Of a stretch of 64,000 nt of DNA, positions 3,430-32,107 are shown piece by piece (positions within the stretch are counted from its first letter, which is position 1; the number at the start of each line of letters is the position of its first letter). The position numbers were made by a program, and so were the translations under genes. The notes beneath the pieces were generated by a model, which had not been told where the DNA came from, made no database searches, and saw nothing but the letters and a program-made list of their open reading frames with translations. Source of the DNA: Morinoia aosen (lineage: Eukaryota; Arthropoda; Malacostraca; Amphipoda; Talitridae); contig CM059579.1 of the NCBI GenBank assembly GCA_030386875.1, positions 20,060,484-20,124,483 on the forward strand, read 5' to 3'.

Positions 3430-4500
3430 GTATACCGTTCATACCTATGTTAAGTCTTTTACTCGTCCTGTCCAAAATAATAGAGAAAGTAATTACAAAT
3501 CAACAGTCATCTCACTTGGAGGAATCAAATTTACTTCATCGAAATCAATTTACCTATAGGAAGAACACTTACATGAAAGAGGCTTTTCTTAATGTGAATG
3601 GAAAAATATAGAGTGGAATCGATCAAAAGAATGTAACACTTGCTGCTACTCGATCTATTCAAAACGTTCGATGGCGTTGGATATAAGTGAATTTACAAAA
3701 ATTATTGAAATTAGATGTAATACACAATGGTTTGAAAGCTACCTATCTTATTGATCACAGTGCAGTCCGCTTAAATAGCAAACTGTCATCATTCATTCAA
3801 CTCAATTTCGGTGACCCTAAAGGATCAATCCTTGGTTCGTTATTGTACTCTATTTTCATTAAATATTTCTCTCCAATACCTTCTAACACACGAAACTCCA
3901 TGTTTGCATATGATGTTCGAATTGCAATGACAAGTTCTGTGGCGGAATTACCGCAGAAACCCTATTGAGCAACCTGAAGTCATGGGATGACCAAGACGGA
4001 CTCAAACTGAATGTGGAAACAACATAATGCATTATTTTCGGATGCAAGGATGAAATTAAAAAATTCTTAATCTGACTCTCACTGTAGGGAATGATGAAAT
4101 TGAGCTACAAGAAAAGTTAAAATATGGGCATTTAGTCCGATAAAGATATGTCCTTCAAATCTCATGATGAGAAAACTTGTCACAAAATTTACGGAACTTT
4201 GATGTTTTCATCGTATAAGAAGTATGCTCAACGAAAAATCTACATTATTAGGCATTCAATCTTTAGTGTTATCGTGTATTGACTATTGCAGCCAAGTTGG
4301 TGGCGATAAACCTCAATATCTTCGAAGAGAGTTACAAAAATGTATGAATTTGGCGGCCAAGGTGATACGCAAAGGCGAACTTAAAGAGTCATCACGCCAC
4401 TCCTCTCCTAAATAAACTCTGCTGGACTCATATTCAAGAATGATTTCTCACTCGGAAAGCCCAATACGAATTTTATTCTTTATATCACCCTCAGAGCAAC
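3430..4500 (+). pseudogene. Decayed non-LTR retrotransposon reverse transcriptase
   Basis: Stretches in shifting frames resemble the RT of LINE elements in the correct order. First comes LVLSKIIEKVITNQ with LEESNLLHRNQF (compare the usual LSKILEK ... LEENNLL ... QSGFR). Next is GDPKGSILGSLLYSIF (the GVPQGSILGPLLF motif), then MFAYDVRIAM at the FADD catalytic site with the first Asp replaced by Tyr. Last is IQSLVLSCIDYCSQV with LQKCMNLAAKVI, typical of the thumb/connection region. Several stops and frameshifts separate these blocks, so it cannot encode an enzyme. It lies directly upstream of the BEL 5' LTR; BEL may have inserted at its edge. The clade (Jockey, CR1 or L2-like) is not determined. 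Confidence 0.8.
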
Positions 4501-4568
4501 GCTGGTATTGTGCAATTCCACCCCCTACTGTAATAGACCAGAAGCCGAATTGTAGAAATAACATCTTG

Positions 4569-5774
4569 TGTTAGGAAAATCCTCAACCGTAGGTGAATTA
4601 GGAAGCTAATGTCATCTAAATTCAATAGGAACAATCACTGGCATTTGGCTTCACCTTCATTTCATTGCCCTGGCTTGCATTAAAAGTTTATGAAGCTTCT
4701 TCCAGCCTTCTTCACATCAGACCACAAATGAGAAGCGGAAATGGGTAACGCTGCGAACTCGAACGAGGTCGCTCTCCAGACTCGAGCGCGGAGAGACAGG
4801 GCTCGTTACTGGCTCTAAATGTCTACGCTTCGACGCAACCGCGTAAACTGGCTGCTTATAGCCGACTTCTACGAGACACCCGCATCTCGTCATGAGGGAC
4901 TAAGCCCTCCCGAGCCTCCTCCTCCCGGGGATCCACCGATCTGCAGCACTACGACGGCCGCCGTCGGCAGCCAGGACCGGCTTCACCACTAAAGCAGTAA
5001 GTCAGAGGTGTTTGGAATGAAGTCGTGCTGAATGCCAGTGATTGCTTAAGGTAGCCTGTGGTCATTGCAACACGGCCTGTAATCTAAAAGGGAAGACGGC
5101 AGCTTACGATAATTTTTTGAATCTATTATTTTTCGTAATTCATCAAACATTTAATCTCTGTAATTGATAGACCCTTAAATATCTGTAATTGATAGACCCT
5201 TAAATATCTGTAAGTGATAGACCCTTTGATATCTGTAAGTGATAGACCCTTTGATATCTGTAAGTGATAGACCCTTTAATATCTGTAAGTGATAGACCCT
5301 TTAATATCTGTAAGTGATAGACCCTTAAATCTCTGTAATTGATACTCTTAAATCTCGGTAAGCGATAGACCATTAAATTTCTTCCAATTGATCAAATCTT
5401 CCGTTGCTTAGTTATTTACTACTCGCCACGGAAGTGGTATACTTCAATGAGACCTTCATTCACATTCCTTGATTTTGGCCTCTAATTAATAACTAACTAT
5501 TCTTTCACAGCTGTTTTCCCTTAACGAAAAAGACGGGAAGCTCGAGGACGGCACGACTCTCGGACCCCAGTGGATCCGCAGTCCGTCTTTCGAGCGCGGA
5601 CAGACGGCCTTGTCATCTGTCCCGCTACCACCAGTTCGGACCTACAGTCTTTGAATAACTTTTGTTGGTGCTTATGGTCATTAAGATTGCATTTGGTGCA
5701 AATGCAACCAACCTTACTTTGTTTCATTCCGAGCCCGTTTATTTCTAGGTAATTCCTGGAAAGATTTTTCGTTA
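4569..5774 (+). repeat. BEL 5' LTR
   Basis: Direct copy of the sequence at 15544-17522 (minus the LINE inserted there). It begins TGTTAGGAAAATCC. The 3' border is set by the primer binding site at 5775, leaving an LTR end ...TTTTCGTTA instead of the usual CA. It is about 1.2 kb and contains a 25-bp tandem repeat near 5150-5365. The open frames of 60 and 87 residues near its right end recur identically in the other LTR and are not genes. Confidence 0.93.
5153..5365 (+). repeat. 25-bp tandem repeat inside the 5' LTR, about 8 units
   Basis: Units read ATCTGTAAGTGATAGACCCT plus five bases (T/A-rich). About eight units are present here, against about four in the 3' LTR (16131-16250). The edges are variant units with CTCTGTAATTGATA. 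Confidence 0.92.
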
Positions 5775-5790
5775 TGGCGACCATGACAGG
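5775..5790 (+). other. Primer binding site, tRNA-Arg type
   Basis: TGGCGACCATGACAGG directly follows the 5' LTR. It is complementary, with one mismatch (A for G at the ninth base), to the 3' end of insect tRNA-Arg of the type ending ...CCTGTCACGGTCG plus CCA, as I remember that tRNA. The ATG at 5774-5776 overlaps this site and is unlikely to be the real gag start. Confidence 0.75.
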
Positions 5791-5956
5791 ACGTTGTGTT
5801 GCTAGCTGGCTGACGGTGTGGTGGAGTGCTGTTGGAGTAGGTTGGTGCCTCGGGTGGGGGGCTCTTTCTTGTATTCTTTCCTTGGTGTCTATAAATTTTC
5901 GGCTGTGTAGCCTATGCTTGCCTATTTCTACTGCGTGCTTGACTTCTAATTTGATA

Positions 5957-8900
5957 ATGCCTGAGACCGATTTTCCCCTAAAGCAGCGAGGTTACCTGCG
6001 CGCTCGGGCCAGCAAACTACACGACAAAGTTCAACGTAATATATCCACTTTGACCAATGCAGAAAAATTGTCTAGCCTTGCTAACTTGGAGAGTTTGCGC
6101 CTTGAGCTGAAAACTCTCGACTCTTCGATTAGTGCAGCCCTGTGGGCAAAAACCTCTGATGAATCTGCACTGAATACAGAGTGGGATGCTGCGGATGTGT
6201 ATCAACAAAAAATCATTGACAGCATCACTCTACTAAAAAGTAATTCTCCGGTGGAGACAGTTTCTGCAGAGGGTAGCACGGTTGTTGTACCAACTTCGCG
6301 TCTTAACAAATTGAAATTGCCAGAAATTCCCCTGCCAATTTTCGGGAATGAGAAAGGGGAAACTTTGATAAATTTTTTAGAGAACTTTGAGAACATAGTT
6401 ACAAAGTATGACCTATCTGACTATGAAAAGTTCATGTACCTGAAACGACAATTGACCGGAGAACCCCTTACACTAATCAATTCTCTTGCAGGTGCTAAGC
6501 AATCTTACGATGGTGCTAAATCTCTACTGAGGGAGGCGTTCGCGGACACTATTGCCGAAGAATTCAATGCCATAAAGCGTTTGTCTCAACTAAATCTCTT
6601 TCCAGGTGGCGACCCGTATGAATTTGTAAGTGAAATGAGGCTTGTTCAGGAACTCTTCAGCTCACAAGGCATAGACACAGATACTGTCCTCCAATATTTC
6701 ATTTGGAACGGGATGACCCCTGACTTGCAAAATCAGATGGTTAATATCTGTAACTCTAACAAGCCGAGCTTAAAAGAGATGAACGACAATATATTTAAAG
6801 CCTTGGATCGTTGCAAAGAAATTCGTACCAAATGCCAGTCGCACAACTTGCATGGTCAGAAAATTTCACCTAATTCTTCAATGCAAAATTTTGCTGTTAA
6901 CGTAAACCCCGGATCTGCGAGCATTAGTCCTAACTCCAAATATCGGTACTGTAGCCTCTGTACTGACAGAGATGGCGCGCGGGACTCGTCCCATGTCACC
7001 AAAGATTGCGAGGTTTTCAAAACCGCCAGATCAAAAATCGATCGATTAAAGGCTCTAGGAGCGTGTACTCGTTGTGGTTTTGCCAACCACGTCACCTCAG
7101 CATGTTCTTTTAAATTTGGTCGTAACTGCTTCTTCTGTCACAAAGATCACATGAGCTTTCTTTGTCCCAGTAAGGGTGATGAACGGGGTGCCGCTCAGAG
7201 TAGGAAGGATAAAATAAAACCAAAGAACGATGCTAAAGTCAATTCGGGTGTAGTTTGGATGAGAGCCGCACTGCAGGTAAATGTGGGAGGAGAAGCTATC
7301 TTGCCTACTTTTGCTTGTAAAATCGGTAACTGCACGTTGCGCGCCATGAAAGATTCAGGCTGCCAGCCTCATTTTATCGTAAAGAGTTTGGCACATAAAT
7401 TGAAATTGCCGGTGGTGTGTGATGATTACTTGGTGACTGTCAACGGCTTTAACGAATCAAAAAATTACTCGACTAAAGTGGTAAAAGTACCACTTGAAGT
7501 TGGAGGTTGCCTCCACGAAATAAAAGCAATTTGCGTGCCTAACATTAAAACTTCCATCGAGCTCCCTGGGTTAACGAGGGCCGCTGCGGAAATATCACGT
7601 AAAGGTTACAAACTTGCTGATCCTAATCTATTAATCACTGATGAAATTTCTCAGATTGAACTGATCCTTGGCATGAATGATCCTGACGTACTGCTGGAGA
7701 ATCAGGTTCAGTTCGGGTCTCCTATACCGTCGGTAATGTCTAGAACGCATGCAGGAATTCTTTTGTGCGGCAGCCTGACGAGACTTGTTACTAATATCCC
7801 TGAATTGCCCGACCAAAATTTTCAGGTAACAGGTCATGACGAGTGTGCCGGTATGGCTTCGCTACAAAAACCAAAAATTGAAGTAGGGGACGAATGTCAC
7901 CCGAATGTAAAAAGTGCAGACCACGAAGTGCTAGAGTCGCACATAGTTGTGCTGGGCGAGGACGACGATGTGGACGATACCCTGCGGCGTGCCACCGAAG
8001 AGATGCTCGAGGCCCAATGTCAGCTCTCGTTGGGCTACGACACGGAACCGTATGAGGAAAACACCGTGGAAATTAACGACAAAGTTGTAAATTTCGTGTT
8101 AGACAACACGCGCCGTCAGGACGATGGGAGGCTAATCATGCCCCTCACCTGGAAGGGAGATGTTGCACATTTTTTGGATAAGAACTTCCACCTAGCGGAA
8201 AAAATCCTGACTAGCCAGCAACAGAAATCTCCAGAGAAGCTGCACATGATCGACGACAGCATAAGAGAGTGGGAGGAAGAAGGTATCATAGAAAAAATTG
8301 AAGACCTTTCATCTTTTCTCGAAGAACACCCCTCCCACAGCTTTCTGGCGCACATGGCAGTTTTCCGCGAGGAGCAGGAGACGACAAAATGCCGCGTTGT
8401 GTTTTTATCAAACCTGTGTGAAAGAAAACACGGAGCAGCGAGCCTGAGTCACAATCAAGTTATCCATCCAGGGCCGAACCTTAATCAAAAAATTACCAGC
8501 GCCTTGACTCACTCGAGGTTTGGAGAAAAATTGTTAATCTTCGACCTGAAAAAAGCTTTTCTTCAAATAGCGCTAAATGAAGAAGACTCGAACCGGCTAC
8601 TATTTCTCTGGTTTAAGGATGTGAAAAAAGGGAATTACTCCCTTGTGGCTTATCGCAATCTTCGCCTCAGCTTTGGAATCAGGTGCAGCCCTACTATCCT
8701 AATGCTTGCTATGTATAAGATCCTTTGCCTAGACGTGCAGGGAGACTCAGAGGAGCTGGTGCAAATAAAACGTCGGCTGTATGCACTTCTTTATATGGAC
8801 AATGGGGCCTTTTCGGGAACCTGTGAAGAAGTGTCACGAGCATACAATCTACTTGAAAGCATCTTCTCTCCCTACCGTTTTGAGGTACAAAAGATGGCGA

Positions 8901-9983
8901 CAAACGATGAACCTCTACAAACGGCGATAGACGAAGCAACCTCTTCGCGTACGACGAGAACTGTAAAGCTGATGGGACTGGAGTAGGACCGTCTCGACGA
9001 CGGGATCGCGGCGAGAAAAATTTCGCTAGACGGATCCGCAAACACGAAGCGACGAATACTTCAAACCATAGCCAGTCAGTTCGACCCCTTCAATTTTTCT
9101 GGGCCTTGTCTTAACAGAGCCAGGTTGTTCCTCCATTCGTTGCAGAGCAACAAAGAGACGACGTGGGATGAAGTGTTAAACCCCCAGGCGATGAGGCAGT
9201 GGAAGAACATCGTACGGCAAGCCAACAAAACTCCACGGATATCGGTAAGTAGATTCGTAGGAGATCGGGACGAGCCATACGAATTGATTGCTTTTACAGA
9301 TGCGAGCAAAACTATTTATGCGTCTGTTGTGTACCTTAAAAATTCCGTGACTAAGAAGGTTCATTTCCTTGCTGCAAAAAATAGATTAGTGAATACTCAA
9401 CTGCAGACCAAAACGATTATTACTCTCGAACTGCAAGCCATCACGTTAGGAGTAGAGATGTTGTGCGATCTTAGCGATGAACTGTCGGGGACAAAGTGCC
9501 CCTGTCCTATTAGGATCATTAAGAGGCAGTTATTCACGGATAGCACCATCTCATTACATTGGCTCAATTCGCAGACGCAAACTTTAAACAAAATGCAAAA
9601 ACTGTCTGTCTTTGTTCTAAACCGACTGAATTACATACAACGAATGTGCAGTAGCAATGCCATTACCTTTGATTTTGTCCCTACTAATCAAAATCCAGCA
9701 GATTGCCTCTCGCGCTGTTTCAGCTTTAACCAGCTGAAAAAGAGCTGTTACTTGAGCGGACCTAAGTTTCTTACAGAAGAAGCGGTGGCTCCGACAGGCA
9801 CCGTGTCAGTGACGGTGCCGAGTCCGTTCGTAAGTCCAAAACAATCGTGTACTGGTTTGCACGCTTCAATGCAGCCAGAGCCTCCCCACATCATTGACGT
9901 GGAGAAATTCGGCAATCTAAAGAAGCTGCTTAATGTGCATTGCCAGGTGTTAGTGTTCATAAATAAATTGAAACAACGCTTAA
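5957..9983 (+). pseudogene. BEL gag-pol: gag, protease, RT, RNase H (interrupted)
   Basis: Polyprotein of a BEL/Pao element that makes particle protein, processes it and copies the RNA. The frame is open from 5774, but that region overlaps the primer binding site, so I prefer the ATG at 5957 (MPETDFPLKQRG). In order, numbering from 5774: a DUF1759-like gag (residues about 175-320, with NFLENFENIV and EKFMYLKRQL); CysHis fingers at about 393-465 (CTRCGFANHVTSAC, CFFCHKDHMSFLC); a DUF1758-type aspartic protease with DSG near 525; RT with FDLKKAF near 922 and YMDN near 1007; after the stop, RNase H with FTDAS, TLELQA and FTDSTISLHWL, then NPADCLSR. TAG at 8984-8986 interrupts the frame inside pol, and the same frame continues after it. 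The frame then runs into the piggyBac-like insertion after TTAA at 9980-9983. Confidence 0.93.
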
Positions 9984-10665
9984 CCCGCGCACGGTCGCGC
10001 ATCCCTCAGAAAAGTAGTCAATTTACCCGCGTTACTCTGCTGTTCCCTGTTCACTTACCGTAATAGGCAGAGATGTAAAAATATGAAGTAATGAGTAAAA
10101 AATGTTGCTTTACACTTTGATGTTGTCAGATTTTTGATAACTTGAACCGTTTCTTTGTAATATGGAGTCAAACTCCGTAGATTTTTGCACAACATTGCTT
10201 CAAAGAGATCAATGGCCATTTTTGTGTTTTGGGAACAATGTAATGTTTTTCACTGCTATTTTATGCAGAAAATCCTTCCAAACCTGCTGATGTTTTTATT
10301 TTTCCTCTACAACAATTAGAAAAAAAGTTATGACCATTTATGTCTACTAGGTGTTATCCATTCTTCGTTTTAGTTCCTACATAAATGCATGTTTGCATGT
10401 CTGGTTATATTACTGTAAGTATAGTGTTTCGAAACTTGTAATTTTCACACAATATGAATAAAATACTGCTCTACACGCTACTGACTTCAGATTTGTCTTA
10501 TTTGCCATTTTTACGAAATAAGGCGAAATAAGGCCCTGAGTAGTTTCGCTGGTAACTGAGGCTGCCACTGACTGTTCGCACGCACACCCTCTCACGGTCG
10601 CCTCATTTACCACACTGACTGTGCTTACCCCTCCCAACCAGGGCTTCCACGAATGCGAAAGTTCC

Positions 10666-10720
10666 TACCCTAAAACTTTGTTCAAGATTACCCTAAAAAT
10701 CCATAAATTACCCTAAAATA
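10666..10720. repeat. hAT left subterminal TACCCTAAAA repeats
   Basis: Three copies of TACCCTAAAA at 10666, about 10690 and about 10710, all on the + strand. The same motif recurs at the right end (13320-13450). Clustered short motifs near hAT ends are known transposase-binding sites in this superfamily; that role here is inferred. Confidence 0.7.
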
Positions 10721-11924
10721 TCAAACTAGCCATTGCTGGTATTACATGAAAATATTCCGTGTTTATATGTATAGAAATGACACAACATCAGGGTCATGAG
10801 GAGATAAGAAAATGAAATTCTCAGACTTTACGGAGTCATGTGTGTCACGATACGTGCATCATTTTACATTGCTTTCACTATAGTTTATCTTTTTTGTATG
10901 GTATATATTGGTTACCCAGTGTCAGGATACCAGGTTCTTTAGTAAGTGGGGATCAAGGTAAAATAAACAAAAGACTTCAATTATATAATTAATATGAAAG
11001 AAATGATTAACTGACGACAATTATATATTAATTAGTAAATAAATAGTACCTAGTCGTATGAACAGGAAGAATTTTAGAATAAAAAAAACAAGTTGATAGG
11101 ATATTACTGGGATTTCAAGGTTAACGTTTGCTTTAGATTCCAAGCCAAAAGTAAAAGTGACTGTGTGGTACTAGGCAGGCCAGACCTAATAATCCAACTG
11201 ACTGGTACAGCAGACAATACACAACTGTATTAAGTTTCACCCCGCTCAAAGGAAACTACAATTTAAGGATAAACGGGTCGCACCGCTATGTGATTCACAG
11301 GCGTCCTAGAGAAATTTCCCTGACAACCAGTTACAAGCTCTGTTCGATGAGCGTAAAGTACGAGGCCAGGCGATCTACTCCTGACTAGCAGAGAGAAGCA
11401 AAGGCATAGTACGAGGAAATGAACGACAAAGTAATACTCGAAACATTTATGGAACACAACTCAAACACAGGTTCACAATTTTTTGCGCAGAAAATTAGAG
11501 GAACTTAGATGTGATATACGCTCAGACACACCCTAATTCTCGGCGCAATTGCAAAGAATGTAATGCACTTTATGAAGAATTATAACTTTCTCAAAATTTT
11601 CGCAATCGGTATACTCAATTGGTTCGAATTTAATTGCGTATAGTGATAATTTACGCTGAGTAAAGCAAAGCAGATGTTGCTCAAGGTTCAAAGTTAGCCC
11701 CATTGAATTTCAAATAAGAGTCTCGTTACAATGAAGAATCTCGGCCCATGGCCTTATTATTTTTCGACAGAAGCCTGCATGTCAAAAAAGCCAAAAGCCT
11801 ACAGTCGAATACTTGTAGCTCCTCCAAGAATCGGAGTCCAACGTTAATAAGCCCTAGTGCCTAGAATAATGGAAGACGAACCTCGATTTCTATCTCACAA
11901 GCTTTTTTATTCACTCCCAATATG

Positions 11925-12480
11925 TGTTTTTACACCAAACCAACATTTCTTCCATGAAGTCAAAAATTCATTTTTTAAACAAAGAAGCCAAAGAATGTTT
12001 GGATCCCATCATAGCGTTAGTCGTGTCTGAAAAGAACCCTACAATGTCGCTCACTTTAATATTTTTATCACTGAAATCTTTTTTATGTGTAGTAAACAAT
12101 CCATTGGCTGTGCTATCCTCTTTTTCAACAAGATCAACAGAGGAGCTCTTAATTGCACTCTCACTCCATTATTGGACGATGAATCCGAGCTGTTTAGCTT
12201 TACTGCGATCAGTTGTTTCATCAATTATTACAGAATACAAGCTTCATTAAGTACAACGACAAGATCACTTATAGTAGATATTTGCCCAATCATTGCCTAA
12301 TAATGTTTAAAGCTCTTTGTTTCCCTAAGCTTTACTTTCTTTAAGAAACATTTGTTTCAGTAGTTACGAAATAGGCAAATCATTCTCGGAAATATTTGCA
12401 CGTATCGGCAATTCAATTGTTGTACCTGACTTGTCAATTGGATCGTGTGATAATGAACAGAATTATAGATTGTGTTTTCC
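11925..12480 (-). pseudogene. hAT transposase remnant
   Basis: Read on the minus strand, 12231 down to 11972 gives VIIDETTDRSKAKQLGFIV, a stop, then VDLVEKEDSTANGLF and VSDIVGFFSDTTNAMMGS with KHSLASLF. These match the catalytic core of hAT transposases: the FS(L/V)IIDE(S/T)TD block with the first acidic residue, and the II(G)F(A/C)SD...N(A/V)M(M/F)G block with the second. Upstream (12480-12300) a weaker ENDLPIS...LLKQMF segment fits the region that usually precedes it. Stops and frameshifts occur throughout, and the C-terminal dimerisation region is not visible. It cannot make an active enzyme. Confidence 0.85.
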
Positions 12481-13319
12481 TTCTCTGCACTGAGAGATTT
12501 TTATGGCGTTGAGTGTTAGCATGAAGAATAATCTCAGATTGACCAAACGTAATGATAGTTGAGCATATTACAATATTCCATATCCTTAGTTGAGGTATAA
12601 GAGTGAAACCTTTCTAACTAGCCTCGAAACAGTTGTTCGCTTCTCTATCCTTCCTTCCTTTTTCGTAAAAAGGGTTAACAGACGATAAAATTTGGCTCTC
12701 CTTCATGGGTGGTGTAGCAGCTTCATCATACACAGAATCCATTTAATAGTAGCAATTCTACTGAGACGCTAGTAACCAAGTATTTTGTCACGATGCAATA
12801 CTGCACGTGAGAGCACCTGACAATATTTTCACTCGACTGAAACAAAACTACCAGCCCTAGGCTCTGGCAGTGTCATTCTTTACATGTTATAGAGCTGTTC
12901 AATTCCAATAAATGACGATGACCAATTTATAGGTGTCAATCTCGATAAAAATTTACGAGTTAGTTATGTAAGGCTAGAAATTATAAAATTCTAAACAATA
13001 TATCAATTTTCATATCACTTTAGTTATTGTCATTACTTTCAATTACCCAAGGTATTATTTATGCAGCAAATCTGGCCACATTATACTGAAGAGAGATCTG
13101 AGTTCTGAGATATATGCATTGATATGCACAGCAATTTGCGCCTTACCGTAGTGTGCAATAAAGACTAAATTAATACCGAGTTCAGGCAAGTTTGTTCCAA
13201 ATATGACTCTTATTGAACATTTTCACAAATGTTTCGGTAGCGTACTTCCGGAATGTACCTTACACAAGGTATATTGTAGTACTTGAGAGTACACTTGATA
13301 TTGGTGATGAAAACAGGCA

Positions 13320-13450
13320 ATTACCCTACAATTTTGCTTCGCTACCCCGACAGAAGTCGAATTACCCTAAAAATCATGGAATTTTGCTTTACCCTAAACT
13401 CTACCCTAGACCATATCTGATTACCCTAAAATAGGGTATTTTACCCTAAA
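13320..13450. repeat. hAT right subterminal TTACCCTAAA repeats
   Basis: About six copies of TTACCCTAAA or close variants between 13322 and 13450, again on the + strand, the same orientation as the left-end copies. The last copies flank a small AATAGGGTATTTTACCCT palindrome directly inside the right end. Confidence 0.7.
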
Positions 13451-13639
13451 GTGGAAGCACTGCTCCCAACTTCCAAGTGGTTGGAGCTCTGCCTTAACCC
13501 TCACAATGTGGGGGTTTCTGGCTCCAGCTGTGTAGCACTCGCTGAGACGATCATTTTGGTGTATAACAACTTGGGGTTTTGCCTTACGTCTGGCAACCAG
13601 TGAGCCTGGTAAATGAGGTGACCAGTTACAGTGCGCGGG

Positions 13640-15253
13640 TTAAAAACAAAGGCTCCGCACAAGTTCGAGCATCTCGCTATCATTGACGATTACGAGTCTA
13701 TTCGCGTAAAATCGTGGAGAGATCTCGTCCTGAGAGATCATGCTGCATTCTACCCAGACCTAAGAAATTTTTTCTGTTGCGACAATCCTGCCTTGAAAGA
13801 TATACCCCCGTTGGTTTCCAAAATCAATGTTTTCAGAGATCCACGCGATGGCGTATTGAAAGTCAAAAGCAAATTCGGTAGGTGGAGTAACGACAAAAGT
13901 TACAATTTTCCCATCCTGCTCTCGCCTAAAAGCAAGTTAGTCGAGCTTGTAATTAGAGATGCTCATAGTTCTCTCGCCCACGGAGGATGTTACGCTGTTT
14001 TAGCGAGTTTGCGAAAGCAGTTTTTTGTGCCTTGTTTTTTCTCGGCTGTGAAGGCGGTTCTGAAAAAATGTATCGTCTGCCGACGTTTCAATAAGCGAAC
14101 GGTTAAGCTAAACCAAAGCTCTTACCGTAGTTTCAGAACCGATCCTCCTACCGAGCCCTTTAAGTATCTGTTCCTCGACTATTTAGGTCCAATGTTTGTT
14201 AAAAAGCAAACTGAAAAATGTAAAACCTGGCTTCTGTGTTTGACCTGCTGCTGGAGCAGAGCTGTTAATTTAATTTTGGTTCCAGATTTAACAGTCAAAA
14301 GCTTTTTGCGAGCCTTACAAATTCATGTTTTCCAACACGGCTTACCGAGTCGCATATTTTCTGATTTGGGTTCGCAAATTACGGCTGGAGCCGATATCGT
14401 AAAGAATTTCTTGTGTAATGTTGAGGCGCAGTCGTATTTCTCTGATCATGGGATGCAGGCGACTAGTTTTCAACAGTATTTCAAGGGAAATAGCTCACTC
14501 GGTTCTCTCGTGGAAGTCTGTGTTAAATTCACAAAGAGGATAATCTACGGTGCCATTCGCAATAATGTCCTTGACTATCATGACTTCGAACTGCTTATTG
14601 CGCAGACTATTAACCTGTTGAATAAGAGGCCTCTTGCCTTTCAGGAAGCATTGCGTGATGAACAATCTACGTGCGTGCCTCTAACTCTAACCCCAGAAAT
14701 TCTCTGCCATGGACGGGAGTTAGTTACGTACAACTTGATCCCGGCACTGCAACCGGACCCGGATCGGGATGAAGAATGGACAGCGTCTGTAGGTTCCAAA
14801 TCTTCTCTCAGAGAGCAGTTCACGAAACTGCGTAGAGTGCGGGAGAATTTAACCCGAACGTATAATGAAGAGTTCCGACAAACTCTTGTAAATCAAGCGG
14901 TCAACGCAAAGGAGAGGTACAAGCCGGTGAAGCATGACCGTCTTGAAGTGAACGATCTGGTTTTGCTTAAAGATCCCATGCTGAAAGCAAACCATTACCC
15001 AATGGCCATCGTAAAAGAGGTGCATAAGAATGACCAAGGGGAAGTCACGGGAGTCATCGTGATGAAAGGTAATACAAGAGAGCGAGTGAAAAGACACGTA
15101 TGCTCGGTAATCCCCCTCATGCGTCCTCAGCAGGTTAACGGCGACCGCGACGCCCAGCTCCCTTCACCAGAGCAGCGCCCGATCCAGGGGAACCGACCGA
15201 CAAGAGCAGCGGCTACGAAGGGTAGTCAGAAAACGAAAATTTTATTTCAATAG
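13640..15253 (+). pseudogene. BEL integrase part of pol (separated by the insertion)
   Basis: Continuation of BEL pol after the piggyBac-like insertion, in the same reading frame as the upstream part. It inserts the cDNA into the genome. The zinc-binding HHCC region is visible as RDAHSSLAHGG followed by VLKKCIVCRRF. The catalytic triad residues are present as FLDYLGPM, IFSDLGSQ and LVEVCVKFTKR, and INLLNKRPLAFQEAL is typical of BEL integrases. A C-terminal domain with VNDLVLLKDP and YPMAIVKEV follows, ending at the TAG at 15251-15253. This part has no stop or frameshift of its own. An apparent start at 13631 (GTG) lies in the piggyBac end and is not real. Confidence 0.93.
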
Positions 15254-15543
15254 AAATTTAATTTTCAAACTATTGTACAGTGTAAATGCGTTACCTTTTT
15301 TGAATTCTTGATGTTCTAATTTTTTTGCATGTTTTTCGCGGCATACCGAAGGCAAATTGACGTCTCGGTTCTCTTTCTTCTGTCGCGTTGATAATTTGTA
15401 GTACTTAAGTATCTAAGCATTTAAGTGTTGAAGTTTTCGAATTTCTGATTCACCATGCATTTGACTTTTTCTTGGTGCTAAGTAAAAGGAATAAAATTCG
15501 GGTTTCAAATGACGTATGAAACTCCGAATTGGCCCGTTGGCAG
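15254..15543 (+). other. BEL untranslated region before the 3' LTR
   Basis: About 290 bp between the integrase stop and the 3' LTR. The AGTAAAAGGAATAAAA stretch near 15480 is the only purine-rich tract, and it is about 50 bp away from the LTR. The bases directly before the LTR (CCCGTTGGCAG) are not purine-rich. Confidence 0.7.
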
Positions 15544-16130
15544 TGTTAGGAAAATCCTCAACCGTAGGTGAATTAGGAAGCTAATGTCATCTAAATTCAA
15601 TAGGAACAATCACTGGCATTTGGCTTCACCTTCATTTCATTGCCCTGGCTTGCATTAAAAGTTTATGAAGCTTCTTCCAGCCTTCTTCACATCAGACCAC
15701 AAATGAGAAGCTGAAATGGGTAACGCTGCGAACTCGAACGAGGTCGCTCTCCAGACTCGAGCGCGGAGAGACAGGGCTCGTTACTGGCTCTAAATGTCTA
15801 CGCTTCGACGCAACCGCGTAAACTGGCTGCTTATAGCCGACTTCTACGAGACACCCGCATCTCGTCATGAGGGACTAAGCCCTCCCGAGCCTCCTCCTCC
15901 CGGGGATCCACCGATCTGCAGCACTACGACGGCCGCCGTCGGCAGCCAGGACCGGCTTCACCACTAAAGCAGTAAGTCAGAGGTGTTTGGAATGAAGTCG
16001 TGCTGAATGCCAGTGATTGCTTAAAGGTAGCCTGTGGTCATTGCAACACGGCCTGTAATCTAAAAGGGAAGACGGCAGCTTACGAAAATTTTTTGAATCT
16101 ATTATTTTTCGTAATTCATCAAACATTTAA

Positions 16131-16250
16131 TCTCTGTAATTGATAGACCCTTAAATATCTGTAAGTGATAGACCCTTTAATATCTGTAAGTGATAGACCC
16201 TTAAATCTCTGTAATTGATACTCTTAAATCTCGGTAAGCGATAGACCATT
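16131..16250 (+). repeat. 25-bp tandem repeat inside the 3' LTR, about 4 units
   Basis: Same ATCTGTAAGTGATAGACCCT-type units as in the 5' LTR, but about four fewer. The first and last variant units are retained, so internal units were gained or lost. Confidence 0.92.
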
Positions 16251-16364
16251 AAATTTCTTCCAATTGATCAAATCTTCCGTTGCTTAGTTATTTACTACTC
16301 GCCACGGAAGTGGTATACTTCAATGAGACCTTCATTCACATTCCTTGATTTTGGCCTCTAATTA

Positions 16365-17232
16365 CTTGAACTTGAACTTGAAATTGAGGGCCGACAGCGT
16401 CGGGGCCTTTGTAACGGCCTACAATTCCCTCCACAGTTATCACACAAAGAGTTCAGCGTCTGGTCCCAGACTTGTCCACTAAACTACTCAGGATCTACCA
16501 ATCCTTGTCACAAGCTGCCATTGGATGGCGTCACTGGGATAGCCAGTGTGTCAAAACACCATCCCCAGGCATATTGGGTCATTACAGCCCATTCTACCAG
16601 ACTGGCTCATTCCAGTCACTGTCTCTTACTCCAGGCACGCACAAGAAACACTTTCATAGCCTCAGTGATACTCGCATTACACTCCTGATCCAATCCAGCA
16701 AGACAGCTCATACCGCAATCATCTTCAGCACATCTGGCATTCCACTCATTCTCTCCATACTGCTCAGACACCACATTCATAAAACTCTCTCTCTCTTGCT
16801 CATACTTACTACATTCCAGCACAAAATGCTCAATTGTTTCCTCTACTCCACTATTACACTGCTGACATAATCTGTTATTATTCTCATTCCATCTCCATGT
16901 ACGTCTGTTCACACTCAATGACTTACATCTCACAGCAAACAAGAGTTGACTTCCAAAACTACCATCATAGAACAGCTCAAACTTAGGTGCTTTCTTTTTC
17001 ATATACCAGTTAAGTGTAGGCTTCCGCATCATGCTAAGCTTCCACTTATTCAATCCATACTCTTTTGTTTGTCTCTCAATCTCTTTCTTCCACCTCTTGC
17101 AGTCCCACTCAGGCCCTACACCTCCTACATTTATTAAACTCCAGTCATCCACAGGTCTCCCAATTCTAACATGAATAATCTTTTGCATACTATGCATACG
17201 ATTAATATACGATTAATAACTAACTGCATACG
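16365..17232 (-). mobile_element. 5'-truncated non-LTR retrotransposon (LINE) in the 3' LTR
   Basis: The insertion breaks the 3' LTR where the 5' LTR reads CTCTAATTAATAAC. ATTA is present on both sides (16361-16364 and 17233-17236) as a short target duplication. In element orientation (minus) it ends in a short tandem tail of TTCAAG units, as in LINE clades that end in microsatellites rather than poly(A). Only the C-terminal end of the polymerase is present, so it is heavily 5' truncated. At the 5' junction (17190-17232), GCATACGATTAAT-type segments and copies of the target ATTAATAACTAACT are repeated, which looks like filler DNA. Confidence 0.85.
16616..17197 (-). pseudogene. LINE polymerase C-terminal fragment
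   Basis: An open frame of about 193 codons on the minus strand without an N-terminal RT. It contains LCQQCNSGVEETIEHFVLEC, the CxxC...ExxxHFxxxC pattern found after the RT domain in many LINE ORF2 proteins, preceded by LLFAVRCKSLSVNRRTWRW. The start codon has no meaning because the element is 5' truncated. The frame is intact to its stop, in line with recent insertion into the young LTR. Confidence 0.8.
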
Positions 17233-17523
17233 ATTAATAACTAACTATTCTTTCACAGCTGTTTTCCCTTAACGAAAAAGACGGGAAGCTCGAGGACGGC
17301 ACGACTCTCGGACCCCAGTGGATCCGCAGTCCGTCTTTCGAGCGCGGACAGACGGCCTTGTCATCTGTCCCGCTACCACCAGTTCGGACCTACAGTCTTT
17401 GAATAACTTTTGTTGGTGCTTATGGTCATTAAGATTGCATTTGGTGCAAATGCAACCAACCTTACTTTGTTTCATTCCGAGCCCGTTTATTTCTAGGTAA
17501 TTCCTGGAAAGATTTTTCGTTGT

Positions 17524-17758
17524 GGCTTCATGCACGAAGGAAATGGATTCGTGTTACGCATCAAGGTAATTTAGAAATGGAATTGCGAAGAATTTCGATC
17601 AGAACACCAAAACGAATCATCTGAATAACGGCAATTTAAGATGGGCCTAAACTCTGAAGGGTAGTTGTGAAGCCAATTAACATCATAGCAAGACAGGAAT
17701 TTATGCACACGTTTCGTCGGGACACAAGTTCCACTGCGTGGTGTTAAAAAGTCTTATC
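17524..17758 (+). repeat. Left terminal inverted repeat (235 bp)
   Basis: Inverted copy of 19934-20168. It starts GGCTTCATGCACGAAGG and ends AAAAAGTCTTATC at its inner border. Confidence 0.92.
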
Positions 17759-17871
17759 ACTGGCATTCAGCACGACTTCATTCCAAACACCTCTGACTTA
17801 CTGCTTTAGTGGTGAAGCCGGTCCTGGCTGCCGACGGCGGCCGTCGTAGTGCTGCAGATCGGTGGATCCCC
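17756..17871 (-). repeat. Inverted fragment of the BEL LTR
   Basis: This roughly 115-bp stretch is the reverse complement of LTR positions 4936 to about 5045 and appears identical by eye. It lies exactly at the inner edge of the left inverted repeat; the ATC of the repeat end is shared with the LTR sequence. It is inverted relative to the adjacent BEL element. Confidence 0.92.
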
Positions 17872-18162
17872 GTTCATCTGACATTGAGCAGAAAGCTCTG
17901 TCAATATCAGGCTCCTTACTGTGGAACAAACTTCCGTAGAGTATCAAAATCTCTCAGACAATGAAGGAATTTAAGATCAAAATAACGAGTCATTTTGAGT
18001 CTCTGCAATAATTATATGCTACAGTACATACTGAAAGTAGTTACGAATTTCTTTTGTTTATCATCCTACATTTCAATACGTGTTACTACATTACACTAGA
18101 TACATTGTTGAAGTGTGCGTAAGTGAAGTGATAGCTTGTATGCGTGTATTTACGTGCATGTT

Positions 18163-18193
<31 letters not shown>

Positions 18194-18254
18194 GCACAGC
18201 AGTTACAGCAAAACTGCTAATCTACCGCCTTGCATTATTATTATAAATACAGTT
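17872..18254. other. Interior of the long-TIR element, left part
   Basis: AT-rich and non-coding. A (TA)n run lies at about 18166-18190. No resemblance to a transposase in any frame. Confidence 0.6.
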
Positions 18255-19160
18255 TTTGTTTTAGCATATATATATGAATAACATCATAAATTTGTTGAGC
18301 GAATTGAAGCTTGTTCTTTGAAGTAGTTAACTTAGTTCTAATTTGTGATGTTTCGCACAAAAAAATGTTTGTTGAATTTCTGCCTTTTCAGTCTTCTAGT
18401 TCTGAACTGATTAAAAATTGTCTGTAAACACTTTCAACAGCATTCCCTGATGTCACAGCGTACGTGAAGATTCAATAGCGTTTCCCCCTTCTCAGTTCAT
18501 CTTTATATTTCTTTTATCACATTTACCAATAAACATTTTTAAACTTAAACTAACTTCCTACGAGATACATTTGTGTTTCCTTTCAGTCTTTTGTACAATC
18601 AATTGACGACCTTTATATCAAAACATTTTAAGCACCAATGTAATTTGGTCTTATGTATTAACTTGATAAGATATTTATATTATTTTACAATATCATTTTT
18701 AGCTTTATGTTATCCTTATATAAAGGTCCTTAGTTGACAAACATATATGGGTGCCACGACAGCCCATGTCAATGCCTGTACAAAGACGGAGAGAAAAGAT
18801 AAAATCTATCCCATTGTAAGCTGTTTTAATTTAAATAATGTTAATTTACGAATTTAATTTAAGAAATATAAAAATGAGGCCCTGTGGGGTGAAAACGCTA
18901 TTGACAGTCTCCACGTACATGGACATATTACCTTTGACTTTCGTGACATCAGGGAATACTATTGAAAACGTTTGTAGGTAATTTATTTCAGAACTAACTG
19001 GTCGAACCGACAGAAATTAAAAAATACCGCTAATATATAACAAAAATAATATATAACATATATAACTTAATTAACTGCCTCAAAGAACATGCCTTAAGTT
19101 GTACAACAAATTTATGATACTTTTCATTAAAATACTTGGCATTAATATAAGGAAATGATG
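18255..19160. repeat. Inner imperfect inverted repeat
   Basis: The arms at about 18265-18510 and 18880-19140 are inverted, diverged copies. Matching blocks include ATCATAAATTTGTTG with GTTCTTTGA, TAGTTCTGAA, and ATTCCCTGATGTCAC with CAATAGCGTTT. The left arm has a small deletion relative to the right. No coding potential. It could be an older foldback element nested in the long-TIR element. Confidence 0.75.
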
Positions 19161-19203
19161 CGTTAGGTAACGTGAGAAATTGACAGATAATAAAAACACA
19201 GTA

Positions 19204-19296
19204 TTTCCTACGCTAATTATACTGGCATAAAAAATTCACCTACGATTTCCTACGAGATTTCCTACGCTAATTATACTGTCATAACAAATTCACCGC
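19204..19296 (+). repeat. Short direct repeat TCCTACGCTAATTATACTG
   Basis: TCCTACGCTAATTATACTG, then CATAA and AAATTCACC, occurs twice with about 60 bp between starts. Part of the interior of the long-TIR element. Confidence 0.8.
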
Positions 19297-19933
19297 AGTC
19301 AGAAACCTGAAAAGAATCGTCGTACAACGCTGATCAGTTCATTTACAACATACTTAGAGCTATATATGAGATCAACTACCTGAATAATGCTGTCATAACA
19401 TACTCACGAGAGTAAGTTACGACAAATTGCCACACAAGGCTAACGTGAACATTACAAAGCGTGTGACCTCAGGCTCATACGACTGAATACATGTTATAGG
19501 CTCATTAATTTCCACTATCGAAAGACGGGAAAGCAACATTGATGTTTGATTTAGATAACCTCGAGTGATTCTGATCAGTGCATTGACAGTCCCAGCCGGT
19601 CGGTAACTCAACCATGCATGATTTTCAACGTGTCCGGGAAGACATACTGGTTTGATCACTTTTCAGACGTGACTACTCTCAACTATTAGGAGCCTCTGTG
19701 ATCCAACTACGTGGATAAATCACGTGCCAGAATAAGTCTTGCTCTGCCACCTTTCCATATACCCCAAACCTCACCTCCCACTTACGGGAGACCTCGTACG
19801 TAACATGTAAGAGATTTTAAGCGTTCTCAAGAGTTATTAATTAATCATTATCGTCAGTCGTCCGCGTCTGATGAGCTTTATTTGAGGTTACACTTGACAT
19901 AATTAGCTTGTTATGTCAAGCTAATATGGCTTG

Positions 19934-20168
19934 GATAAGACTTTTTAACACCACACAGTGGAACTTGTGTCCCGACGAAACGTGTGCATAAATTCCTGTC
20001 TTGCTATGATGTTAATTGGCTTCACAACTACCCTTCAGAGTTTAGGCCCATCTTAAATTGCCGTTATTTAGATGATTCGTTTTGGTGTTCTGATTGAAAT
20101 TCTTCGCAATTCCATTTCTAAATTACCTTGATGCGCAACACGAATCCATTTCCTTCGTGCATGAAGCC
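19934..20168 (-). repeat. Right terminal inverted repeat (235 bp)
   Basis: Inverted copy of 17524-17758. Just inside it, near 19898-19922, two overlapping palindromes occur (CTTGACATAA with TTATGTCAAG, and ATTAGCTTG with CAAGCTAAT). Confidence 0.92.
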
Positions 20169-20909
20169 CAGAAATTTTTTTTGCCATTTTCAGATAATAA
20201 TGTCACAAAGCATGTAATTTTTCTCGATTGATCTACAAAGAAAACCTAAATTTACTGGTTTCGCACTCAAATTTAAAAGTGCAGTCTGATTAGCGAAAAA
20301 AATGGTTTGGTTAACTCTTTATTATTCAGAGCACACAAAATTTGTCTGAAAGTCTGAAAGTATTATAATTAACATAAGAAAGCCTACTGTCCATAGTCGG
20401 GATATGTCGATGTCTTTAATTATTTCACGTTAGGTTTCTGGTATTGCTATCGTGTGCAATCTGTTCATTCCAGTTAAAATTTTACGCACATTTTTGTCAT
20501 ATCGCACACACCCTCTTCACATTCTCAACTGGTAGCAGTTTTAGTTTTGTTGTTGCTACTTTTTACTTACTGTTATACTTTGATTCTATCGAATTTCATT
20601 TCACGCTCACCTGTCTATTTAATGAGCAATAAATACTTTCACAGTTTCCATTGACGATGAGTAATGTATTGCTCGAAAGAGCTTGAGAAAAAGTTTTGAA
20701 CAAAATTTCCAAGCTTGCGCGTTTTTTCCTGATTTGATTTCATGGTCTTTAATTGGATAGAAGATGAACAGGGTAACAAGGTATACCTCTCATCAACTTA
20801 CAACTTGAATTTTATCGAGAATTACAGCATCAAATTGCGTGAAGCCACAGACAAAATAAGGACGCATGACTTAAATATAGATATTGATCTATTTTCTAGA
20901 TATTTAATT
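20169..20909. other. Intergenic, nothing recognised
   Basis: AT-rich sequence between the long-TIR element and the Tc1-like remnant. No left terminal repeat matching the remnant's right end was found here. Confidence 0.5.
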
Positions 20910-21208
20910 TATCATGAATATCCAAACAGCAAAGAAGCGAAGAGTTTTCGATTTACTTCGTGCAAGTGCGGCCCGGAGACCATCCATATAGGGCGGTTGG
21001 TGTCTCATGGCGGCCGGTTAACGGAGTCGAGAAGGTATTAGAAATGGACGACTGTCCCCAAAGAAAACCTGGTAGTCGGGACAGTTAAAAAACAGATAAA
21101 TTGTTTCGTTAGGACTTTGGTCGTAAAGATTTCGAAAGATCCCGCAACATCAATACGGAAGACTGCTGCAAAGCTAGAAGTGGATCCTTACACTATTAGA
21201 ACGCCATA

Positions 21209-21956
21209 CGAGGCCTGTCTAAAAAGTATCCGACCTTTGGCCAGAAAAAATATTTCGAATACCTGTCGGAGTTAGGACCCTAATCCCCTTCAAAGTATGC
21301 CCCTTGTGCTTGCACACACTTAGCCCACCGATCCTTCCACTGCTGGAGACACCTCTGGTAGTTTTTTTTTAGAATGGTGTTCAGCTCCATCGTCGCATTG
21401 CCTGTTTGACTCCTTCGATGCTGACTGTTTTCTTTGATGTCCGTGGAATTGTGCATCACGAATACGCACCGGAAGGACAAACAGTGACAAAGGAGTACTA
21501 TCAGGATGTTCTCCGGCGACTTCGTGATGCAGTTCGGCGCAAAAGACCAGACATGTGGACTGCGAACAACTGGCACTTGCATCACGACAACGCGCCCGCA
21601 CATTCATCCCATTTGATCCGCAATTTCTTGGCCAAACATGGAATTACGACCGTTCGCCAACCTCCCTACTCTCCAGACCTGGCTCCTTGCGACTTCTGGT
21701 TGTTTCCAAAATTGAAGACACCACTGAAAGGATCCCGTTTTGAGAGTAGAGAAGAGATAATGCGGAACGCGACGACAGAGCTGAACACCATTCCAAAAGA
21801 AGACTTCCAGAGGTGTTTCCGGCAGTGGAAGGATCGGTGGGCTAAGTGTGTGGAAGCACAAGGAGCCTACTTTGAAGGGGATTAGGGTCCCAACCCCGTC
21901 AGGTTGTTGAAGTATTTTTTCTGGCCAAAGGTCGGATACTTTTTCGACAGGCCTCG
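21209..21956 (+). mobile_element. mariner with its 3' end duplicated in inverted orientation
   Basis: TA flanks both ends (21207-21208, 21957-21958). The ends read CGAGGCCTGTCTAAAAAGTA and the inverse of TACTTTTTCGACAGGCCTCG. The left about 194 bp (21209-21402) is an inverted copy of the right about 195 bp (21762-21956), including the last part of the transposase coding region. The 5' half of the normal mariner is missing. The result is a 748-bp element with arms far longer than usual mariner TIRs. TA duplication shows it inserted as a unit, into the Tc1-like transposase. Confidence 0.88.
21406..21885 (+). pseudogene. mariner transposase, C-terminal half
   Basis: Open frame for about the last 155 residues of a mariner transposase. 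SMLTVFFDVRGIVHHEYAPE is the usual middle region. HHDNAPAHSSHL has the second catalytic Asp, and YSPDLAPCDFWLFPKLK has the third, 34 residues apart between them (the D34D spacing of mariner). The helix-turn-helix domains and the first catalytic Asp are absent, replaced by the inverted 3' sequence. It ends at the TAG at 21883-21885. It cannot be an active enzyme but the retained part is open. Confidence 0.92.
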
Positions 21957-23181: not shown

Positions 23182-23513
23182 GTGCTTACCTTATCTACAT
23201 ATATATAAAAATTTTTGGTATTTTGAGCATAGAAATTATATCAACTATTAAAATTTTGTTGGATTTGGTACATAATTAGTCATACAAAGATATTGTTGAT
23301 GCAGATCTATACTTTTCAGGGTAGGCACTGCCTACCTTGCCTACTCAAAGGGCACGTGTTGCAATATACAGTGTGTCCAAAAAAAAAAAGATACCTAATT
23401 TTCAAGGGCTGTAATTCAGAAACTTTGGTATCATTGATACGGCTTCAACTCGTAAGTGTAGCTCTCCACTACGCGCTACCGACGAACTCAAGTAAAGAAT
23501 TGAAAATGAGGCC
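23182..23513 (+). repeat. 330-bp direct duplication, copy 1
   Basis: About 96-97% identical by eye to 25208-25536. It begins GTGCTTACCTTATCTACATA and ends AATTGAAAATGAGGCC. It contains, from about 23369, CAGTGTGTCC and TTTTCAAGGGCTG, the left terminal repeat of the Tc1-like remnant that is more complete in copy 2. After GAGGCC the copies diverge. Confidence 0.93.
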
Positions 23514-23605
23514 TAATAAGTCGAAGTCGTCAGAGTCGCATGTTTTAGGTGGAGTCGGAGTCGTTCAATCGGATGTGGTGGAGTCGAGGTTGGAGTGAAT
23601 ATTTT
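23514..23605 (+). repeat. GGAGTCG-type repeat
   Basis: A short run of GTCGGAGTCG, GGTGGAGTC and similar words directly after copy 1. The same motif forms the 36-bp array at 26290-26545. Confidence 0.75.
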
Positions 23606-25207: not shown

Positions 25208-25536
25208 GTGCTTACCTTATCTACATATATATAAAATTTTTTGGTATTTTGAGCATAGAAATTATATCAACTATTAAAATTTTGTTGGATTTGGTACATA
25301 ATTAGTCATACAAAGATATTGTTGATGCAGATCAATACTTTTCAGGGTGGGCACTGCCTACCTTGCCCACTCAGAGGGCACGTGTTGCAATATACAGTGT
25401 GTCCAAAAAAAATATACCTAATTTTCAAGGGCTGTAATTCAGAAACTTTGGTATCATTGATACGGCTTCAACTCGTAAGTGTAGCTCTCCACTACGCTCT
25501 ACCGACGAACTCAAGTAAAGAATTGAAAATGAGGCC
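25208..25536 (+). repeat. 330-bp direct duplication, copy 2
   Basis: Second copy of 23182-23513. Differences are mainly single substitutions and the length of the A-run after GTGTGTCC. Confidence 0.93.
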
Positions 25537-25952
25537 AATTTGCTGCTGGAGATTATGCTCTCGTTAGACGAGTGATGGCACAGTGAATGCAACTGTGTAT
25601 TGAGAAAAACGGAGGACACACCGAAGGAAACGAACAATAGGAGGAATATTTCGATTTTATTTTATTTTATTGGCGTTTTCCATTTAATAAACGATTGAAA
25701 GTTATAAAAAAAATGGTTTTAGTATCATAAAATTCGAAGTTTAACAAAAATGTGCAAACAGGTTTTCAGTATTGGTCACTTAAAATACTGTTTAAAAAAC
25801 GGTTGGATCAATTCGTCTGAAATTTTGTACAGAAATGAAACAAATGTTAAGAAACAAATAGGTCTTTCTAATTTTTTGTAAGTTTTATAGTTTCTGAAAT
25901 ACAGCCAGCCCTTGAAAATTGGGCATCGTTTTTTTGGGAAACCTGGACTATG
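25395..25952 (+). mobile_element. Internally deleted Tc1-like transposon remnant
   Basis: The left end CAGTGTGTCC...AATTTTCAAGGGCTG and the right end CAGCCCTTGAAAATTGGGC...CCTGGACTA are imperfect inverted repeats of about 55 bp, inside TA. Between them only the last codons of a transposase are suggested: RRVMAQ, stop, then MQLCIEKNGGHTEG near 25566-25625, similar to the C-terminal ...RRL..CI..NGGHFEH of Tc1-like transposases. Confidence 0.65.
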
Positions 25953-30475: not shown

Positions 30476-32107
30476 AAGGGTGCCCGTAAAAAATGTTTCA
30501 AATGATTGTCAGGGTCTTATCGATATCCCCATGTGCGTTGAATCTGCACTTATTAATTCTTTGTTCATTGCATCGATAAATCAGAATCATCGACGCTCTA
30601 GTAGAACTTCAAAACGACACACGAATGTCACACGCAAAGCAATTTAATGAATTTATTAACGAAATTCAAAAGAAAAACATTATTGATTAATCATTGAAAT
30701 TTACATACAGGGTTCACATCTAAATATTAGGTCAGCTAAGAGATAGAAACAAAGTTTATCCTCAACCACGAAGAAACAAATTTACTGCAAATTCCGTCCC
30801 CAGCCGAAAATTGAAGGCACAATACAGTCCACTGGGGGACCGACCGAAGTGGGACCAAGTGGAACTGAGCAGCGACCAGGTGCTAGCTGCAGAACAGACT
30901 CCTCCAGGTGTCGACAGCAGAGCTGCCTGCGAAGAACTCTAAAAAGCTACTGAGAAAAACCAAACAGTTGTAATAAAAAATTTGAAAACGAAGAAAATGC
31001 TAATAAAATTAGTTATTTTACCGAAAAGAAAACAAAACATCGAAAACATTTCGGAGACCAGCTCCGTTATGACTAGGTGGTATATTACAATCTTCACAAA
31101 ACTGAATAGTGCTCTGATAAGGGGCAATAGTGCGCTTGTAACTGGTAACTGTGGTCTGGTAACTGGTAACAGTGCTCTGGTAACTGGTAACAGTGCTCTG
31201 GTAATTGGTAACAGTGTTCTGGTAATTGGTAACAGTGCTCTGGTAACTGGTAACAGTGCTATGGTAACTGGTAACAGTGCTCTGGTAACTGGTAACAGTG
31301 CTATGGTAACTGGTAACAGTGCTCTGGTAACTGGTAACAGTGCTATGGTAACTGGTAACAGTGCTCTGGTAACTGGAAACAGTGCTCTGGTAATTGGTAA
31401 CAGTGATCTGGTAATTGGTAACAGTGCTCTGGTAACTGGTAACAGTGCTCTGGTAATTGGTAACAGTGCTCTGGTAATTGGTAACAGTGCTCTGGTAACT
31501 GGTAACAGTGCTATGGTAACTGGTAACAGTGCTCTGGTAACTGGTAACAGTGCTATGGTAACTGGTAACAGTGCTCTGGTAACTGGTAACAGTGCTATGG
31601 TAACTGGTAACAGTGCTCTGGTAACTGGAAACAGTGCTCTGGTAATTGGTAACAGTGATCTGGTAATTGGTAACAGTGCTCTGGTAACTGGTAACAGTGC
31701 TCTGGTAATTGGTAATAGTGCTCTGGTAATTGGTCACAGTGCTCTGGTAACTGGTAACAGTGCACTGGTAACGTCTACATGATAGTTACCTGGGTCAGTT
31801 ACCACCAGCGTAAGAATGACGAGAACCGAGCCAGACACCAGCAAGTTACATGGCAGGGCGGGCTTGAATTAGAATTCTTTGTAGTTCCTGAAATACGAAC
31901 CGGCGTTCTACTATTTACGGAAAACCTCGCGCTGATCTAAAATTTTTATAATATTACGCATGCTACCATACAACAGTTCAATTCCGAATTATTTTTTCTT
32001 GATTATTTTCTTTATATCCCTTCAAAAAGCAGCTTAATAAATATAACAGAATGACATCGTATCATGGATACCAAAAATCATTGGTTACATTTTTCGCGGG
32101 CACCCTG
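30476..32107. mobile_element. TIR element carrying a 21-bp minisatellite
   Basis: The left end AAGGGTGCCCGTAAAAAATG and right end (inverse) CAGGGTGCCCGCGAAAAATG are inverted repeats that continue imperfectly for about 30 bp (both reach AATGATT). TA lies on both sides (30474-30475, 32108-32109), fitting the Tc1/mariner superfamily. The 1.6-kb interior has no transposase and its middle is filled by the 21-bp array. It is non-autonomous, like other MITE-type elements known to carry internal tandem arrays. Confidence 0.78.
31105..31776 (+). repeat. 21-bp minisatellite, 32 units, with a 252-bp higher-order repeat
   Basis: Units of 21 bp built on GGTAACTGGTAACAGTGCTC. The array is in register with codons and reads as 32 copies of NSALVTG with variants NSAMVTG, NSALVIG and NSDLVIG. 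The variant order of units 7-18 (31231-31482) is repeated in units 19-30 (31483-31734), including a silent GGTAACTGGAAAC variant. A 12-unit, 252-bp block has thus been duplicated. Both strands are open for over 230 codons, as expected from a stop-free 21-bp unit. No start context or domain suggests a protein. Confidence 0.95.

Follow-up and report, generated by a model that had tools for sequence, protein, structure and literature searches.

LTR retrotransposons of the BEL/Pao group are expected to leave a target duplication of 4-6 bp at their insertion site, and the two LTRs of one copy are made from a single template. Consequently, when just one of the two LTRs is interrupted, the interrupting element arrived after the copy itself, whereas an insert in the internal region may predate that copy. 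Large animal genomes commonly contain nested elements. Short duplications have also been described at repaired chromosome breaks. Pace et al. (2009; PMC2671141) report 824 closely linked duplications in the human genome, at most 619 bp long, and class duplications with a close donor as products of break repair; the 39 proximal breakpoints inspected there show microhomology, filler, deletions and, in some cases, a target duplication of 4-21 nt. Templated inverted duplications, mostly of about 5-34 bp, are reported at breaks in yeast (PMC11724301), and tandem elements are mentioned as forming in yeast independently of integrase (PMC11899658).

The window analysed here is a stretch of 64,000 nucleotides on contig CM059579.1 of the amphipod Morinoia aosen, and all positions refer to it. 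It holds a genuine nest of mobile elements, in which a BEL-type LTR element (4569 to ~17521, plus strand) contains a piggyBac-like element that itself contains a hAT-like element. This order had been proposed in a sequence-only reading of the same DNA, and it is borne out by the target duplications of the inner elements and by BEL/Pao domains on either side of the insert. Nesting of this type is ordinary, and the right junction of BEL is mildly unusual. We favour, with a probability of about 0.6, an ordinary nest with an abnormally sealed outer border: a recent BEL insertion would have been completed at its right end by template-switch repair, the composite now lying in pol would have been moved in trans, and a LINE-like fragment would have been inserted later.

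The outer element starts with a 5' LTR (4569-5774, plus strand) that reads TGTTAGG...CGTTA and is directly followed by TGGCGACCATGACAGG, which we take to resemble a tRNA-Arg primer binding site; no tRNA was found in the window by ARAGORN. Its pol frame was searched against Pfam as three separate pieces, all on the plus strand. The gag/protease/reverse transcriptase frame, open from stop to stop at 5753-8983, matched Asp_protease_2 (E 2.6e-7), RVT_1 just below the cut-off (E 1.7e-6, 28.4 bits for a cut-off of 29.6) and DUF1759, also below the cut-off. Beyond an in-frame TAG stop (8984-8986), the continued frame (8987-9979) matched Peptidase_A17, the Pao retrotransposon peptidase (E 2.6e-30). 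The integrase part (13644-15253) follows the inner insert in the same frame number, with Integrase_H2C2 (E 1.6e-10) and DUF5641 (E 6.5e-5) detected on 13646-15250. The domain order is that of BEL/Pao elements. The element is thus assigned to BEL/Pao by its LTR pair, which begins with TG, and by pol domains of which four are above the cut-off and RVT_1 just below it. This copy differs from typical members by the lack of an abutting target duplication, by the in-frame stop, by a 3.66-kb insert in pol and an 868-bp insert in the 3' LTR, and by a YMDN at 8792-8803 (plus strand), where we presume that the YxDD motif of the reverse transcriptase should stand. Given the TAG and the YMDN, the copy is probably unable to make a normal polymerase today. 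Outside the insert, a single in-frame stop was counted in pol. A search of Rfam over 4000-21500 returned nothing at the gathering score, and none of the six pattern matches of a BEL integrase piece (protein query) in IMG/VR was confirmed.

The pol frame is broken at 9980 and resumes at 13644; its frame number is unchanged because the insert plus one TTAA amounts to 3660 nt. The insert (9984-13639) is bounded by the TTAA copies that the sequence-only reading had announced, located by sequence scan at 9980-9983 and 13640-13643. The left border reads TTAA-CCCGCGCAC (9980-9992) and the right border GTGCGCGGG-TTAA (13631-13643), and these TTAA duplications with CCC/GGG terminal inverted repeats are those by which piggyBac elements are recognized. 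At a cut of 11 of 12 terminal-repeat matches, this pair was the only one in the window and the configuration appeared in 0/200 resampled sequences; at a looser cut of 9 of 12, it was present in 8/50 resamples. Without the hAT-like element and both copies of its duplication CTCCCAAC, the piggyBac-like part measures 816 nt, divided into a left part (9984-10630) and a right part (13471-13639). It resembles non-autonomous piggyBac elements by its TTAA flanks, its CCC...GGG ends and an internal inverted repeat (26 bp, 85%), with arms at 10596-10621 and 13598-13623. It differs from them in the placing of these arms, one of which begins 612 nt in from the left end, with the other ending just 16 nt short of the right end. 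Among the frames that overlap the piggyBac-like parts alone, the longest has 84 aa. Since no transposase was found by Pfam in six frames of this part, which gave one TilS_C match below the cut-off, we call the element piggyBac-like and consider it non-autonomous. An exact 24-nt pattern of its end had no match in IMG/VR.

Inside this element lies the hAT-like element (10639-13462, minus strand), 2824 bp long, whose termini CAGGGCTTCCAC...GTGGAAGCACTG form an 11-of-12 terminal repeat. The exact 8-bp duplication claimed around it was confirmed as CTCCCAAC at 10631-10638 and 13463-13470. We scanned for exact 8-bp duplications that enclose 0.5-5 kb, with terminal repeats matching at 10 or more of 12 positions; first-order Markov resamples served as controls. 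The window yielded this pair alone, and the 50 resamples yielded no pair. An 8-bp duplication and CAG...CTG terminal inverted repeats are the marks of hAT elements, which this element also resembles by its length of 2.8 kb and by a repeated subterminal motif. Indeed, all seven copies of TACCCTAAA in the window fall within the first 80 or last 100 nt of the element, on one strand. It differs from hAT elements in that a transposase is seen here by eye alone, without support from Pfam or the PDB: a degraded hAT transposase may lie on the minus strand near 11968-12250. Neither eight minus-strand pieces nor a 517-aa part of one frame matched any transposase in Pfam, where DUF5118 appeared below the cut-off (E 0.012 and 0.2). 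A PDB sequence search with a 110-aa hAT piece found no match to a solved structure, and 18 pattern matches of a hAT piece (protein query) in IMG/VR yielded no confirmed one. Both inner borders are shown by the sequence itself.

The earlier statement that neither inner element has a working transposase agrees with our frame counts. The hAT-like element contains 53-69 stops per frame on the minus strand and 51-60 on the plus strand, its longest stop-to-stop frame being 126 aa, and the piggyBac-like parts reach the 84 aa given above. Because neither element has a usable transposase, both were probably moved in trans, and the suggestion of the sequence-only reading to that effect is a fair one. 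The composite would have entered this BEL copy directly, which is the simpler course. It could instead have been present in the parental BEL copy and been carried here in BEL RNA, and would then be older than the insertion; we regard this as improbable. The composite does sit in the internal part of BEL, which goes through an RNA stage, and the window offers nothing that dates it after BEL. Its hAT-like frames are also far more decayed, with 51-69 stops each, than the BEL pol outside the insert with its one stop, but this decay may predate the movement of the hAT-like element. For carriage, moreover, the BEL RNA would have had to exceed its normal length by 3.66 kb and to rely on helper proteins acting in trans.

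The relative ages were approached through the LTRs. The 3' LTR was delineated by alignment as two parts, 15544-16364 and 17233-17521 (plus strand). Outside a 25-bp tandem array, in which the 3' LTR lacks 100 nt relative to the 5' LTR, the LTRs differ by 2 substitutions over 972 aligned nt and by one 1-nt indel; an additional A/G difference stands at the final LTR base if the LTR ends at 5774. The previous estimate of about three differences in 1.1 kb was right in its count, although the length compared is 0.97 kb. Judged from this identity, the BEL insertion is recent, as had been proposed. The argument that everything inside a young BEL must be younger fails as it was stated, since internal inserts could travel in BEL RNA. 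The age of the LTRs dates inserts that lie within one LTR, and not internal ones. A further array of the window, a 25-bp minisatellite of about 33 copies at 1034-1850, has a consensus unit that differs from that of the LTR array.

Describing the locus as a three-level nest was correct for the three levels and incomplete, as the 3' LTR is also split by an 868-bp insert (16365-17232, minus strand). This insert is absent from the 5' LTR and, on the principle given above, is younger than the BEL copy; according to the LTR alignment it is the sole insert dated after BEL. It looks like a truncated LINE in minus orientation, with a (TTCAAG)n tail, a 4-bp duplication, ATTA, and a 198-aa frame that matched zf-RVT below the cut-off (E 0.0039); in a second Pfam search the zf-RVT match of the insert was again below it (E 0.0016). 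The 5' junction of the insert is unusual: target sequence is repeated there in a 21-bp tandem (17207-17246). Two pattern matches of a LINE piece (protein query) were obtained in IMG/VR, neither of them confirmed.

The claim that all borders are exact fails for BEL itself. At the four possible right ends that we tested, the LTRs are not directly flanked by a target duplication of 4-6 bp. This is a feature of the insertion event, and the element is still classed as BEL-type. To the right of the 3' LTR, alignment reveals two inverted patches, contiguous with a 3-nt overlap and with sharp ends. Patch 1 (17524-17758, minus strand) is a 235-bp inverted copy of a presumed donor 2.2 kb downstream (19934-20168, plus strand), from which it differs at 4 positions in 235, two of them at CpG when inspected by eye. 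Patch 2 (17756-17872, minus strand) is a 117-bp inverted copy of the LTR segment 4926-5042, also present at 15901-16017, with 0 differences in 117. The 5-mer CATCT is found on both outer sides, at 4562-4566, 2 nt before the 5' LTR, and at 17875-17879, 2 nt past patch 2, and it is possibly a target duplication around BEL plus patch. A 5-mer shared within such offsets occurred with a frequency of 0.010 in 200,000 random site pairs. The right end could also be read as LTR followed by TGGC, with which the primer binding site begins, as in tandem or unprocessed cDNA, four nucleotides being too few to decide.

The flanks were compared with the surroundings of the donor. Past the donor, no homology was detected on the inner side, where 17873-18500 gave an alignment score of 19 (100 shuffles: median 21, best 30), nor on the outer side, where the left flank scored 21 (shuffles: median 21, best 27). 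We do not prefer a reading of 17524-20168 as a single element with long terminal inverted repeats that was hit by BEL, as there is no homology beyond the 235-bp arm; it is further disfavoured in that both arm ends adjoin BEL-derived sequence. By eye, one old LINE seems to contribute both the left flank, up to 4568, and the DNA from 17873 onward, the two pieces being oriented alike. The piece on the right carries ALSISGSLLWNKLP, presumably a LINE C-terminal pattern, and Pfam returned nothing in the left flank.

In the reading that we favour, the BEL-type element would have inserted and its left end would have joined the target. Host break repair would then have joined the right end while switching templates between the LTR and nearby DNA, copying 117 bp of LTR and 235 bp from 2.2 kb downstream, both in reverse, and leaving CATCT on the outer sides of BEL plus patch. 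A non-coding piggyBac-like element holding the degraded hAT-like element lies in pol, both having probably moved in trans, and the LINE-like fragment entered the 3' LTR afterwards. We infer the repair step at the right end and its timing. Repair at insertion is favoured because no duplication abuts the LTRs while CATCT encloses BEL plus patch, with about 1% expectation by chance. On the other side of the balance, protein matches give weak support, with no transposase or solved-structure match for the hAT-like element, zf-RVT below the cut-off and nothing from Pfam in the flank read as an old LINE. CATCT is set apart by 2 nt at either end, and divergence is higher in patch 1 than between the LTRs (4/235 vs 2/972, Fisher p 0.015; vs 3/972, p 0.030), so that patch 1 may predate BEL or have been copied with errors, which speaks against a single event. 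More specifically, and only tentatively, the right border may be the fossil of a one-ended integration, in which integrase joined the left LTR end, repair of the right gap failed, and the end was sealed by template-switching repair that drew on the LTR of the element and on DNA close by, with the 5-bp stagger (CATCT) preserved beyond the patch.

The same patch anatomy would result from a later break alone: a normal BEL insertion with a full duplication could have been broken just right of the 3' LTR and repaired with the two inverted patches, the right duplication being erased. The timing is loose enough to accommodate this, patch 1 being more diverged than the LTRs and patch 2 identical to them. 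However, CATCT then becomes a chance match (~1%), the break must fall no more than a base or two from the LTR edge, and a patch younger than BEL should not exceed the divergence of the LTRs unless it was copied with errors. We consider this course of events unlikely. The mosaic might in part be an assembly artefact, produced by collapsing or joining repeat copies at the LTRs: the odd junction involves repeated sequence and is seen here in assembled sequence. Yet the inner duplications are perfect, the patches end sharply and overlap by 3 nt, and four differences are private to patch 1, which makes an artefact very improbable.

The repair-mediated duplications of PMC2671141 resemble this junction by a short patch from less than 5 kb away, a short overlap at the joint and a possible small target duplication. 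They were described in vertebrates, and the present junction differs in lying at the end of an LTR element and in having a second patch, derived from the LTR of that element. It would be a further case of an LTR element whose insertion was completed by template-switch repair; at such junctions, it seems advisable to look for target duplications beyond the patch.

Other repeats lie further along the window. A mariner-like transposase remnant was detected at 21376-21882 (Transposase_1, E 4.4e-12; DDE_3, E 6.9e-11). Two direct repeats of about 336 bp, 96.7% identical and about 2.0 kb apart (23182-23517 and 25208-25539), may mark a small LTR element or have arisen by duplication. At 30946-31779, a 21-bp minisatellite is open in frame over 278 aa and matches the beta-roll family LbR_Ice_bind in Pfam (E 5.3e-22); we rejected it as a gene, the match being probably an artefact of a repeat read in frame. 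A satellite-like array of about 69 copies of a 41-bp unit occupies 48563-51403.
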